Shown here piece by piece: positions 44,751 through 49,690 of a stretch of DNA of 64,000 nucleotides; position 1 is the stretch's first letter; every line of letters begins with the position of its first letter. The stretch is taken from NCBI RefSeq assembly GCF_900106535.1, contig NZ_FNOH01000007.1, positions 248,001 through 312,000 of the forward strand. The letters run 5' to 3'. The DNA comes from Myxococcus xanthus. GTDB lineage: Bacteria > Myxococcota > Myxococcia > Myxococcales > Myxococcaceae. The translations under genes were made by a program, and so were the position numbers. Below the pieces are notes generated by a model. It was not told the DNA's origin. It searched no databases and saw only the letters and a list, made by a program, of their open reading frames with translations.

Positions 44751-44907
44751 GCCTTCCGGGAGTGGAGCCGCTGACGGCGGGATGCCCTCGAAACCCCGGA
44801 GGCACTGAGACAGGAGCCCTCGCCCCGCTGCCCGCCCCCCTTGCTCCGCGACATCCTCCGCCTCCACCTTCAGTTTGATGTCTCGCTCGGGACATGGGAG
44901 GCAGGCG

Positions 44908-45639
44908 ATGAAGCGATGGATGGGTGGCGTGGTGGCGGGCGCGCTCGCACTGGGCGGCGGCGCCCTGGCGCAGCAGAACGGCACGGACGACACGGAGAGC
45001 ATGGTCCGCATGGGCCGTCCGGAGGCCATCGACCAGGGGCAGGCCCCGGAGCCGTTCGAGGAAGGCACAGGGGGCGCCGGTTCCCAGGGCACTCCGCCTG
45101 ATGCGCGCGGCGTGGCGCTGCTGCGGCAAGGCCTGCTGCCCATCCCCACCGACGAAAAGGCCTTCCTCGACGAGCTCCACCAGGCCAACCAGCAGGAGGT
45201 GAAGCTGGGCCGGCTCGCACAGCGGCAAGGCAGCTCCCAAGGCGTGAAGGACTACGGCGCGCGGCTGGTGAAGGACCACGGGCAAGCAGACCAACGCCTC
45301 ATGGCCTACGCCCGGAAGCAGAACCTGACGCTGGCCGAGCCCCAGGCGGACACCGACTTCGCCAGGACGATGGAGCGCGCGGAAGAAGCGTCGATGGCGA
45401 AACTCCAGTCCCTCCAGGGCCCCGCGTTCGACCGCGCCTTCCTGGCCGCCATGGTGGGCGACCATGACGCGGACATCGCCAAGGTGATGGCGGGTCAGCA
45501 GCAGTTCTCCGGCAACGCCGGGCTGCAAGCGCTGCTCGGCGACACGCTGCCCACGCTGCGCGAACACCGGCAGCAGGCGTACCGGCTGCTGGGACAGGAA
45601 ACTCCCCGCCAGGCACGCAGGGCTCCCGGCGGACGCTGA
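44908..45639 (+). CDS. Secreted DUF4142 protein
   Basis: Exported protein of 243 residues. Signal peptide MKRWMGGVVAGALALGG ending near ALAQQ. The DUF4142 ferritin-like helical domain occupies about 85-230: FLDELHQANQQEVKLGRLA, QGVKDYGARLVKDHGQAD, and a late FLAAMVGDHDADIAKV. The family is widespread in the periplasm, of unsettled function. The ATG is preceded by GGGAGG. The stop codon converges with the kinase stop inside a 14-bp palindrome. Confidence 0.8.
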   Translation: MKRWMGGVVAGALALGGGALAQQNGTDDTESMVRMGRPEAIDQGQAPEPFEEGTGGAGSQGTPPDARGVALLRQGLLPIPTDEKAFLDELHQANQQEVKLGRLAQRQGSSQGVKDYGARLVKDHGQADQRLMAYARKQNLTLAEPQADTDFARTMERAEEASMAKLQSLQGPAFDRAFLAAMVGDHDADIAKVMAGQQQFSGNAGLQALLGDTLPTLREHRQQAYRLLGQETPRQARRAPGGR

Positions 45640-45647
45640 CGTCAGCG
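45634..45647. terminator. 14-bp palindrome containing both convergent stop codons
   Basis: CGCTGACGTCAGCG spans the two TGA stop codons of the convergent DUF4142 and kinase genes, only two bases apart. It could help end transcription from both sides, but it has no loop or T tract, so this is weak. Confidence 0.25.
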
Positions 45648-47078
45648 CGCGGTGACGTCCAGGACTCGGGACTTCATCTCCCCGGCGTGACTCCACGTAA
45701 TCAGGTCCGTGCTGCCCTCCTCCTTCCCCTTCAGACGCACCACGCCCTGACGCGGCACGGTGACTTCGACGAGGCTCGGTTCGCCCACCGCGATGCGCTG
45801 GAGTCCAGGAACGGCCAGTTCGTGCACGTCGCCGACGCGCAGGACAATCAGCGATGCGGCCATACGCCCGAGGCTCTCGGCTCGCGGCGTGGCGGCGTCG
45901 GACTGGAACAGAAAAGACGGCTTCCACAGGAGCACGCCCAGGACCACCAGGGAACCCGCTCCCGCCAGGGCCAGGATGCCCCGGCGGCCCCATGCCGGCG
46001 AAGGCAGGGAGAGCGCCGCCATCAGCGCCTCCATGCTGGGGAAGCGGTCCTCGGGCGCGTTCGCGAGCCCCCGCGCCAGCGCGGTGCGGAGATGCCTCGG
46101 CACGCTCGACGTTCGCGGTGCGGCGGAGGCAGCAAGGTGGCCGGGACGCTCACCGTGGAGCGCTTCGTGGAGCGCGACGCAAAAGCTGTACTGGTCGCCG
46201 CGGGCGTCCACGGCCCTTCCCGCGCGCTGCTCGGGAGACATGTACGCCGGCGTTCCCGCGGCCTGCCCCCACTCCGTGAGCATGGAGGCCTTCGATGCAC
46301 CCTCGCTCACACCGGCCGGCGCCTCGGGAGACTCGCCCGTGCCGCGCCTCGCGAGCCCGAAGTCCGTGACGCGTACCCGGCCGTCCCGCCCCACCAGCAC
46401 GTTGGACGGCTTGAAGTCACGGTGCACCACCCCCGCGCGATGGGCAGCGGCCAGCCCCGCTCCCGCTGCCAGGAAGACATCCAACACGTCCCGCCATGGA
46501 CGCTCGCGTTCCCGAAGCCAGTCCGCGAGCGTCGTGCCGTCCACCCACTCCATGGCCAGGAAGTCGTGCCCCTCCGCCGTCCCCAGCTCGAAGAGTGGCA
46601 GCACGTTGGGATGCGAGAGCCGCGCCATGGCCTGGGCCTCGCGAAGCAGCCGCTCACGACCCTGGTCCTGCGCGCCCGCGAGCAGCGGCCTCAACAGCTT
46701 GAGCGCCACCCGCCGCCCCAGCCGCAGGTCATCCGCCGCGTACACCACGCCCATCCCTCCCATGCCCAACACGCCCTGCAGCAGATAGGCCCCCAGCCGC
46801 GTCCCTGGCGGCAGGACCGGCTCCTCCCGCGCGTCCGGCAACGTCGCCGCGCCCGTGTCCCACCGCGTGGGCGCCTCCGCCTCACGCTCAACGACGACTG
46901 CGCCCGGCAGAGAGGAACTGGCCGCCACCGCCGCCACCAACGCCCGGCAGTCCGCGCAACCGTCGAGGTGCGCTTCCACCACCGCCACCTTCCCCACGGG
47001 AGCCGAGCCACTGACGAAGGCCGCGAGCAGGTTCTCATCCGGACATGCGGACATCGGAGGACGGTGCAGCGAGTTCAT
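45642..47078 (-). CDS. Membrane Ser/Thr kinase with zinc anti-sigma motif and periplasmic pilus-N domain
   Basis: Protein of 478 residues. Order: anti-sigma zinc motif (His37-x3-Cys41-x2-Cys44), PknB-like kinase (about 95-350) with LGMGGMGVVY, Lys127, catalytic Asp221 in HRDFKPSN and DFG 239-241, one membrane helix (366-386), then a periplasmic domain (408-478) of the pilus-formation N-terminal type, VGDVHELAVPGLQRIAVGEP...GSTDLITWS. The kinase would sense envelope state and may act on a sigma factor. ATG 47078 is preceded by GAGG nine bases upstream; a further frame to 47612 has no coding character. A small secreted protein made only of the same periplasmic domain, and a TIGR03001-type sigma gene, lie within 2.5 kb. 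Confidence 0.88.
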   Translation of the reverse strand: MNSLHRPPMSACPDENLLAAFVSGSAPVGKVAVVEAHLDGCADCRALVAAVAASSSLPGAVVVEREAEAPTRWDTGAATLPDAREEPVLPPGTRLGAYLLQGVLGMGGMGVVYAADDLRLGRRVALKLLRPLLAGAQDQGRERLLREAQAMARLSHPNVLPLFELGTAEGHDFLAMEWVDGTTLADWLRERERPWRDVLDVFLAAGAGLAAAHRAGVVHRDFKPSNVLVGRDGRVRVTDFGLARRGTGESPEAPAGVSEGASKASMLTEWGQAAGTPAYMSPEQRAGRAVDARGDQYSFCVALHEALHGERPGHLAASAAPRTSSVPRHLRTALARGLANAPEDRFPSMEALMAALSLPSPAWGRRGILALAGAGSLVVLGVLLWKPSFLFQSDAATPRAESLGRMAASLIVLRVGDVHELAVPGLQRIAVGEPSLVEVTVPRQGVVRLKGKEEGSTDLITWSHAGEMKSRVLDVTAR

Positions 47079-47267
47079 GGCGCGCCTCGAATCATCGCAG
47101 CCCGAGTCCGCGCCGAACAGCCCACCCGAGTGTTCCCACCCTCGAAGGCAGCTCCGCTGGCGCGCCGACCCGACCTCCCACCTTGTGTCAGCCCCTCCCT
47201 GTAGACAGGTCGTCGTGGAGGGAACGTTCCTTCCACGCGACGGCCGCGAAGGCAGGGGGACGGGCGG

Positions 47268-47852
47268 ATGTACACGTTGGCGGAGATGCGCGCTTTCAGG
47301 CTGCGTGACGCGGCGGAGTTGCTGGCACAGCGGGGGTTCGACAACGTCCGGGCCGCGGAACTGGCCCGGGCCACGCGGCTCTCGGTGGGCTCGCTGTATC
47401 GTTACTACGGCAGCAAGCAGGGCATCGCGAGGGCGATACGGACCCTCACCGAGCGCGAGCTGTCCTACACGGGTTTCGTCGCCTACCAGATGGCGGATGG
47501 CGACCCGCTGCGGCAGGGCTTTCGCGACGTCTTCATCGCCTTCTGGCGCGAGTTCGCGACCTGGGCGCTGTTGCAGCCCCACCTCGTGGGCTTCACCTTC
47601 CTTCACAACCATCCGGACACGGACTCACCGGGCGAGCATGACGGACGGACGCGCGCGCAGGTGCTGGAGGTCCTCGAGCATGGCGAGCGCGAGAAGGTGT
47701 TTCCCAAGGGCCGCACCTGGCTCCATGAGTGCATGGTGTGGGGCATGCTGTCGGAACTCGTGCGCCGGACGGGCCGGGGCGAGGTGGTGAGCGAAGAAGA
47801 CGTCGAGACTGCCGCGGAGGTCCTCTGGAAGGCGCTCTCTTTAGATGAGCCC
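47268..47852 (+). CDS. TetR-family regulator with apparent loss of its stop codon
   Basis: The frame from ATG 47268 encodes a normal TetR: NVRAAELARATRLSVGSLYRYY (HTH), SKQGIARAIRTLTE, then a ligand domain ending near ETAAEVLWKALS at about residue 192, the usual length. Instead of stopping, the frame stays open to 48701, antisense to two other genes, adding about 285 low-complexity residues. Removing one T of the TTT at 47840-47842 would put a TAG right after KALS. I therefore give the end at the domain boundary, with the true end unresolved. It is divergent from the kinase gene. Target unknown. Confidence 0.6.
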
Positions 47853-48158
47853 TCCAAGCCTCGAGGTGGTGGCAATCCGCCTCCGGGAGGTGACCACGCG
47901 CATCCAGCGCTCACGGCGGACACGTCAGCTCGGACAAGTGGGGCGATGGTCCCCACCGCATCCGCTGAACCCCCTCCAACTGCGACGCGCCTTCGTGCGG
48001 CGGCAGGTGACGCACCGCTCTCGCATGCACCTTGCCCCCGGCCGGTCCAGACGGCGCGAAGCCCTGGTCCAGCGGCGTCCACGCCCCTCATCCCTGCGCG
48101 GAGGAGCGCGGCTTCCATTCATGCCACATGGCGGCACCATGGCCACCGATGCCCTGCA
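47853..48158. other. Stretch with no supported gene downstream of the TetR domain
   Basis: About 306 bases between the TetR domain and the small pilus-N protein gene. All open frames here have low-complexity Arg/Pro/His composition and none resembles a protein I recognise. It may be the decayed tail region of the TetR transcript. Confidence 0.4.
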
Positions 48159-48482
48159 TCAATCGGTGACGACGATGCGGTAGCTGCTGCGCTTGTTCTC
48201 GGGCCCCACCCACACGAGCAGCGCTGTCTCACCGGCCTGCTTACCGATGATGCGCAGCACCCCTTTGCCGAGCGCCTTGATGTCCGCAATCTCCGGTTCG
48301 TCAATCGCGATGCGGACCATTCCCGGAATTTGAAGGTCGCGATGGCTGCCCTTCTTCACGACCACCGTTTCCTCGGTGGTGGCCGAGGCCCCAGAAGACG
48401 GGGCCGGCTTCGACTCCTCCGCCAGCGCAGGCGCTCCCATCAACGCCAGCGCAACCAGGGCAAGGCCCATTCTGTGATGCAT
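48159..48482 (-). CDS. Small secreted pilus-formation-N-domain protein
   Basis: Exported protein of 107 residues: signal peptide MHHRMGLALVALALM to ALAEE, then one domain of the T2SS-T3SS_pil_N type (as at the N-terminus of CpaC/RcpA secretins): KKGSHRDLQIPGMVRIAID, EPEIADIKALGKGVLRI and GKQAGETALLVWVGP. The same pattern forms the periplasmic tail of the Ser/Thr kinase at 45642-47078. GGAGGAC precedes the ATG. It lies 98 bases downstream of the sigma factor gene on the same strand. It may be a ligand or partner of the kinase tail (inference). Confidence 0.82.
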   Translation of the reverse strand: MHHRMGLALVALALMGAPALAEESKPAPSSGASATTEETVVVKKGSHRDLQIPGMVRIAIDEPEIADIKALGKGVLRIIGKQAGETALLVWVGPENKRSSYRIVVTD

Positions 48483-48580
48483 GGTGTGTGTCCTCCAAGA
48501 GGGGGTTGTTCCACCTTCACCCGGATGACACCGGCCAGGTCGGAGCGTTGCACGCGGCCGCGAAAAAAGTCCGCGGACCC

Positions 48581-49495
48581 TCAGGAAGCCCCAGGGCTGC
48601 TCAGCAGGGACGGCAGGCTCAGGTCCAGCTCTCCCTGTACCACCCGCATCAGGCTGTGCAGTTCGCCGGAGGTGAGCCGAAGCCGCTCCGCCAGCCGCTG
48701 ACGTGTGCCCTCCAGCGCCGCTTCCCGGGCACGGGCCACCCAGCGCGACACGGTGGACTTGTGCGTCTGGTACATGGTGCCGATGCGCTCCAGGCTCAGC
48801 CCCTCCACCACGTGCAAGCGCAGCACGGTGCGCTCCCGCGTGGGCAGGGCATTCAGTGCCTCGGAGAGCGCCGCCTGGAAATGCTCGCGGTGGTTCTTGC
48901 GCAGGTAGTCCAACTCGACGTCCGCCATGCCCGCATGGGTTGGCAGCGGGAGCGCCTCCGCCTCCTCTTCGGCGTGGGCCCTCCGGCGCTCCGAGCGCTG
49001 GAGGTTGAGGGCGGTGCGCACCGCTGCCGCGCGCAACCAAGCCGCGAGCGGACCACTGCCCAGGTATTCCGCCATGCGTGCGGGCCGGTCACCTTCTGGG
49101 ACGAGCAGCCGCTCGCGCAGGTGTTGAACCACCTCGGAGGGGTCCACACCCGTGTCCCGCATCCGAGCCAAGGACGCCGCCGCCTTGGGAAGAACGTGGC
49201 GCTCCAGCGCGACATGCGCCGCGGCGTTCCCCCGCACACAGGCGCACGCCAGATAGAGGTCCGCGGCATGCACGGAGGCCAGCACCCGTGAGGGGTCCTC
49301 GTCCCGTGGCAGGCACGAAGCAAGGTGGCGTAGGAAGTCTTCCTCCGCCAGCGTCACGCCCGGCCAGGCCTGCCGCGCCGCGGCGCAGAGCGCGACCAGC
49401 GTGTCCTCCAGTCCGGACAGGGCCTCGTAGCCCTCGCGTGTCCCGGAGCCGAGCTGCTGGAGGAAGACGAGCGAGCGGCTCTGCTGCGTTCGCAT
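48581..49495 (-). CDS. Sigma-70-family factor of the Myxococcales TIGR03001 type
   Basis: Protein of 304 residues. Region 2 is LAAWLRAAAVRTALNLQRSE; region 4 is ALNALPTRERTVLRLHVVE with HTH LERIGTMYQTHKSTVSRWV. The long N-terminus (about 100 residues before region 2, with LPRDEDPSRVLASVHAADLYLACAC) is characteristic of the Myxococcus-specific sigma subfamily often coded with Ser/Thr kinases. ATG 49495 (MRTQQSRSL) is chosen over a longer open frame. Probable partner of the zinc-motif kinase downstream on the same strand. Confidence 0.82.
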   Translation of the reverse strand: MRTQQSRSLVFLQQLGSGTREGYEALSGLEDTLVALCAAARQAWPGVTLAEEDFLRHLASCLPRDEDPSRVLASVHAADLYLACACVRGNAAAHVALERHVLPKAAASLARMRDTGVDPSEVVQHLRERLLVPEGDRPARMAEYLGSGPLAAWLRAAAVRTALNLQRSERRRAHAEEEAEALPLPTHAGMADVELDYLRKNHREHFQAALSEALNALPTRERTVLRLHVVEGLSLERIGTMYQTHKSTVSRWVARAREAALEGTRQRLAERLRLTSGELHSLMRVVQGELDLSLPSLLSSPGAS

Positions 49496-49559
49496 GCGCA
49501 CCTCGGCACCGCGCGTGCCTGGAACGGCACGGCTCACCCGCCTTGTTACCCCGTTCCCT

Positions 49560-49690
49560 CCCCCCGTTTCCACCCGGCCAGCACGACGGCTCGGCGAGCA
49601 ACCGCGCCAGGAAGTCGCCAAGGGCCTTTAACTTGGGCGGCGTGGGGCGCGCGGGCGGCCACACCCGCCACAAGGCTCCCCGCTCCCCCC
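49560..49690 (-). pseudogene. Possible 3' remnant of a LysR-type regulator gene
   Basis: In this minus frame, GALWRVWPPARPTPPKLKALG followed by DFLARLLAEP resembles the C-terminal end of LysR regulators (typically Y/W-P-x-x-R-x-x-P-x-K-x-x-A-x-x-DFL). Nothing of the N-terminal HTH precedes it, and the frame continues without the expected stop. Short and by eye only; could be chance. Confidence 0.35.

Follow-up and report, generated by a model that had tools for sequence, protein, structure and literature searches.

A predicted anti-sigma kinase with a pil_N tail, encoded with a free pil_N protein and a TIGR03001 sigma factor in Myxococcus xanthus

The locus described here lies in a 64,000-nucleotide stretch of the Myxococcus xanthus genome (the window), where three minus-strand genes are transcribed in the order TIGR03001 sigma factor, free secreted pil_N protein and kinase with a pil_N tail. 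The positions that a first-pass annotation had assigned to these genes were correct. The features of the locus are:

45642-47078, minus strand: membrane Ser/Thr kinase gene, 478 amino acids (translation; Pfam Pkinase, 114.5 bits)
45645-45857, minus strand: probable periplasmic pil_N tail of the kinase, residues 408-478 (PF13629, E 2.1e-9; predicted model)
45927-45992, minus strand: single transmembrane helix of the kinase, residues 363-384 (hydropathy and predicted model)
46008-46778, minus strand: Hanks-type kinase domain with VAxK, HRDFKPSN and DFG (Pfam and motifs)
46944-47045, minus strand: zinc anti-sigma (ZAS, zf-HC2) head of the kinase, H37-x3-C41-x2-C44 (zf-HC2 match; invariant in the alignment)
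47268-48701, plus strand: TetR-family gene inserted between the free pil_N and kinase genes, outside the conserved cassette
48159-48482, minus strand: free secreted pil_N protein gene, 107 amino acids (PF13629)
48581-49495, minus strand: sigma factor gene, TIGR03001 (Sig-70_gmx1), 304 amino acids (NCBIfam, 334.7 bits)
49544-49572, minus strand: candidate promoter TGGAAAC-N16-GTAACA (conserved element upstream of the sigma gene)

The TetR-family gene separates the free pil_N gene from the kinase gene, so that within the window the three genes do not form one uninterrupted operon; a transcription unit that includes the kinase gene is ruled out here, but the genes are contiguous in relatives. Among the loci fetched, the insert was confined to the nearest relatives (L064, L065, L066, L093 and L094), and in other genomes of the genus, which lack it, the kinase gene lies directly behind the free gene. 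This restricted distribution indicates a recent insertion into an older cassette. The TetR region ends near 47870. Its reading frame remains open to 48701, crossing in antisense both the intergenic region and the whole of the free pil_N gene, as it does in all insert-bearing relatives checked; the open frame could result from high GC content or represent a long extension in antisense. At the other end of the locus, a gene for a DUF4142 protein (44875-45639) is convergent with the kinase gene in most loci of the genus. It was considered as a cassette partner and rejected, because it stays near the free gene at two loci (L080 and L081) that have lost both kinase and sigma gene, a sulfatase-like gene standing in the kinase's place; it is therefore treated as a neighbour. 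The element TGGAAAC-N16-GTAACA is conserved across the aligned regions upstream of the sigma gene and may, on sequence grounds, be that gene's promoter. A wider regulon was not recovered with a strict form of the pattern, which matched only the present locus and one other place in the genome.

The zinc anti-sigma motif proposed for the N-terminus of the kinase was borne out. The protein scores 21.8 bits against zf-HC2 in a single-protein scan (0.4 bits below the cut-off of 22.2) and 25.1 bits, above the cut-off, in a genome scan; H-x3-C-x2-C is found in every full-length kinase relative seen, and H37, C41 and C44 are invariant in the kinase alignment. The predicted model, of moderate confidence in this part, has helices at residues 15-23, 28-38 and 42-55. 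A second ATG lies at 47054. The catalytic Lys, HRD and DFG are all present (VALKLL, HRDFKPSN and DFGL), the G-loop is conserved as well, and the closest solved folds of the domain are those of PknB and PknI. WGRR lies on the cytoplasmic side of the transmembrane helix. With a cytoplasmic kinase domain and a single transmembrane helix, the pil_N tail is likely to be in the periplasm. The T2SS-T3SS_pil_N family PF13629 matches the tail at residues 411-475 (E 2.1e-9, 37.4 bits against a curated cut-off of 23), and the model shows seven strands there with a pLDDT of 82-95 for the block. No PASTA repeats were matched in the kinase by the Pfam scan, and the PASTA kinase model NF033483 (PknB) gave 197 bits against a cut-off of 450, with the kinase domain alone matching. 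The protein resembles PASTA kinases such as PknB in being a one-pass membrane Hanks kinase with a presumptive outside sensor, but differs from them in that a zinc head and a pil_N tail replace the PASTA repeats and in its linkage to a sigma factor.

Two variants of the kinase were seen among relatives. At L086 (7119-8741), a pil_N-tailed kinase with intact zinc head and tail has VALMLL instead of VALKLL. With its catalytic Lys replaced by Met, it is possibly a pseudokinase, and the substitution, if real, fits a role independent of catalysis. At L082, L083, L084 and L092, one free gene is followed by two tandem pil_N-tailed ZAS-kinases, the second tail lacking the conserved Trp.

As read from its sequence, the free protein carries a signal peptide, which ends ...PALA / EE, but no lipobox. 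PF13629 matches residues 38-106 (E 1.3e-9, 38.0 bits against the same cut-off of 23); the pil_N pattern described as common to the kinase tail and the 107-residue protein is thus found above the cut-off in both. In the AlphaFold model, residues 41-107 form a seven-strand beta sandwich with a pLDDT of 95-98. Among solved structures, this domain is related in sequence to the Tad secretin RcpA and to another secretin, and its fold matches are VirB9 N-terminal domains and Ig-like domains, with Z up to 9.6 for what is a common and nonspecific fold. The domain thus resembles the N-domain of Tad/Kil secretins (RcpA, CpaC and KilC; PF13629) in being Ig/VirB9-like by sequence and predicted fold. Unlike in these secretins, it occurs here as a free periplasmic protein and as a kinase tail, without the secretin barrel: PF00263 was absent from both proteins in the Pfam scan.

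The RcpA N-domain has been described as VirB9-like (PMC10499894) and as a small Ig fold, monomeric on its own, which binds RcpC, the latter modelled as a hairpin completing its sheet (PMC12307814). It seems conceivable, if improbable, that the free and tail pil_N domains stand in for the N-domain of KilC and bind a beta-hairpin of the CpaB/RcpC type, in which case assembly of the prey-killing pilus would change sigma activity. The VirB9-like fold match of the free domain agrees with this idea, as does its 41% identity to the KilC-type domain, about as close as that between free and tail domains. Moreover, the sole secretin-domain pil_N protein among those examined in the genome, a KilC-like protein in which PF00263 is found, adjoins an ATPase fused to an FHA domain. 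Since KilF of M. xanthus has been described as an ATPase with an FHA domain, this secretin is most likely KilC. Yet the cassette contains no Kil system genes, two genomes that lack the cassette (G011 and G019) have the secretin, and a domain in common need not mean a partner in common. Were the idea correct, an anti-sigma kinase would detect in the periplasm when the contact-dependent pilus for prey killing is assembled or used, and would pass this on to transcription. As a separate observation, the KilC-like secretin at L063 (6398-8395) bears pil_N and BON domains, whereas KilC has been described as being without an N0 domain.

The tail and the free domain are 37% identical over 52 amino acids (E 8e-13). 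In a tree of pil_N domains, the tail from the window groups with tails and the free protein with free proteins, both groups being old and spanning genera; the two domains are therefore old paralogs. A recent duplication in this genome is ruled out, as main-lineage tails and free domains form separate old groups; the description of the tail as duplicated thus stands for old paralogy only. In an AU test, grouping all 36 tails into a single clade gave p 0.027, and some distant tails branch at other points of the tree.

When two domains are fused in some genomes but encoded separately in others, they often work jointly. One ZAS-kinase (L135, 8513-10657) carries three tandem pil_N domains at a locus with no free pil_N gene seen nearby; another locus (L089) has two free pil_N proteins and two pil_N domains in the kinase tail, and two more (L073 and L263) have two free proteins and one tail domain. 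The fusions at L135 and L089 lend Rosetta-stone support to the idea that free and tail domains may function together. The pil_N parts evolve at least twice as fast as the sigma factor or the kinase (mean distances 1.24 and 1.02 versus 0.49 and 0.38), and free and tail distances show a weak co-variation once the sigma and kinase background is removed (partial r 0.23, p 0.0025).

The first-pass annotation had tied its proposal to the co-occurrence of these genes in other myxobacteria, and such co-occurrence was found. Of the 27 genomes of the genus that were searched, 23 contain sigma factor, free pil_N protein and pil_N-tailed ZAS-kinase together, mostly as contiguous genes. The distance from sigma to free gene is about 4.8 kb in G013 and about 9.5 kb in G008, and in G015 the cassette is split across two contigs. 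Two of the 27 genomes (G004 and G012) retain the free gene alone, without kinase and sigma, and in two others (G011 and G019) neither the free gene nor kinase and sigma were found. Beyond the genus, the cassette is present in G040, in three genomes of genus g8 (G033, G053 and G061), in one of g17 (G064) and in a member of another family (G071); among named records it was seen in M. xanthus AM003, Myxococcus, Pyxidicoccus and Archangium. Some of the named records are the same genomes as those with G handles; counted on G handles only, at least 28 genomes keep the order sigma, free pil_N, pil_N-tailed kinase, and M. xanthus, Pyxidicoccus and Archangium are among them, as are members of more distant families. 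Solitary free pil_N genes occur in G037, in G070 and at a second locus of G040. This myxobacterial cassette also occurs in a record (L169) that bears the name Comamonas sp. KCTC 72670 and is probably mislabelled.

The free copies found without kinase or sigma, together with the position of the free gene directly behind the sigma gene, would suit a different arrangement, in which the free protein is a structural or target protein under sigma control and the circuit of kinase and sigma is complete without it. We regard this as rather unlikely in view of the L135 kinase, which has extra pil_N domains where the free gene is missing, and of the matched two and two domains at L089.

The sigma gene close by was also assigned correctly: the protein scores 334.7 bits against TIGR03001 (cut-off 154.6), with positions 1-244 of the 244-residue model covered. 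All six TIGR03001 sigmas of this genome adjoin a ZAS-kinase, and none of seven other zf-HC2 regions of the genome that were fetched holds a kinase. By our estimate (about 28 zf-HC2 places in 9.26 Mb), a given gene would have zf-HC2 within a few kb in about 2% of cases, so that adjacency in six of six cases is not a matter of chance. A ZAS-kinase was likewise found near the TIGR03001 sigma gene in 36 of 40 loci sampled across the phylum and in 64 of 80 named loci, where the stretches of some of the others end at contig ends. About one-fifth of TIGR03001 loci have no ZAS-kinase within 6 kb, some of these stretches being incomplete. The kinase tails are of several kinds: pil_N, a long tail with putative TPR-like repeats after a transmembrane helix, and a tail of about 980 residues without a clear helix of that sort. 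Tail type tracks the sigma tree (10 changes, versus 33 in shuffles). We conclude that the basic module is ZAS-kinase plus TIGR03001 sigma, the pil_N cassette being one sensor version of it. One of the six sigma genes of this genome (L060, 6548-7409) is split over two frames, owing to a frameshift either in the gene or in the assembly.

A sigma gene beside a Hanks-type kinase gene is also the arrangement of group ECF43, in which PknT phosphorylates EcfP and PknS is proposed to phosphorylate EcfK. In ECF43 sigmas, region 2.2 lacks negative charges and bears a Thr that is phosphorylated (PMC8999054). By analogy, the kinase could activate its sigma by phosphorylation, with the ZAS head as a mere docking site. 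The adjoining genes, the intact catalytic residues and the ECF43 precedent speak for such a mechanism. However, TIGR03001 is a separate sigma subfamily in which all 21 sequences compared keep Glu121 of region 2.2, a region without any conserved Ser/Thr phospho-site; the loss of charge and the phosphorylatable residue of ECF43 are both missing. Furthermore, the kinase here bears a zinc anti-sigma head, of which none is described for ECF43 regulators in the review consulted. On account of region 2.2, activation of the ECF43 type is the less likely course; we consider it doubtful, and the suggestion that the kinase acts on the sigma in this way finds no support.

As a rule, sigma factors are restrained by a passive anti-sigma protein, and in a few cases a kinase switches them; many zinc anti-sigmas are membrane-bound with an outside sensor. 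The reading we favor, at a probability of about one half, is that the kinase serves as membrane anti-sigma factor for the neighboring TIGR03001 sigma, with the pil_N pair as periplasmic sensor. It starts from what is seen in the sequence, namely the genes and domains, likely topology, conserved cassette, catalytic residues and fusions. The cytoplasmic ZAS head would hold the sigma, and the periplasmic tail would form the sensor together with the free protein. Altered binding between the two pil_N domains, or with a third beta-strand partner, would change the state of the kinase, possibly by dimerization or autophosphorylation, and the changed kinase would loosen the ZAS head and free the sigma. 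Against this reading count the persistence of free pil_N without kinase and sigma (G004 and G012) or as solitary genes, the one-fifth of TIGR03001 loci lacking a nearby ZAS-kinase, and the TetR gene between kinase and sigma in the window; ZAS domains can also bind targets other than sigmas. The envelope-sensing circuit of the first-pass annotation therefore survives in part: conservation of the cassette and the fusions linking free and tail domains sustain it, whereas phosphorylation of the ECF43 type is not supported and the free gene can persist alone.

Like zinc anti-sigmas of the zf-HC2/ZAS class (ChrR and RsrA type), the kinase has an N-terminal H-x3-C-x2-C head and a gene adjoining that of a sigma; it differs from them by the full kinase domain between head and membrane. 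In the RseA-RseB system, the state of a membrane anti-sigma factor, RseA, is set by a distinct periplasmic protein, RseB, and the proposed membrane anti-sigma with its separate periplasmic protein is comparable. RseB, however, is not a copy of the periplasmic domain of RseA and that system has no kinase, whereas here free protein and tail carry one and the same domain and a kinase is present. No paper was found that treats TIGR03001 by name or a ZAS domain fused to a kinase; an earlier ECF reclassification may list the pairing. Every part belongs to a known family. In the literature searched, we found no description of a protein that combines an anti-sigma head with a kinase and is paired with a single sigma subfamily, nor of a sensor built from both a free and a tethered form of pil_N.

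Taken as a whole, the cassette has the look of an envelope sensor that switches gene expression. Anti-sigma and kinase functions are both predicted in a single membrane protein, which goes with its own sigma subfamily across the myxobacteria and whose sensors are interchangeable. In the pil_N version the sensor domain, familiar above all from pilus secretins, is also supplied as a free copy. The cassette is present in M. xanthus, where every step is genetically tractable.
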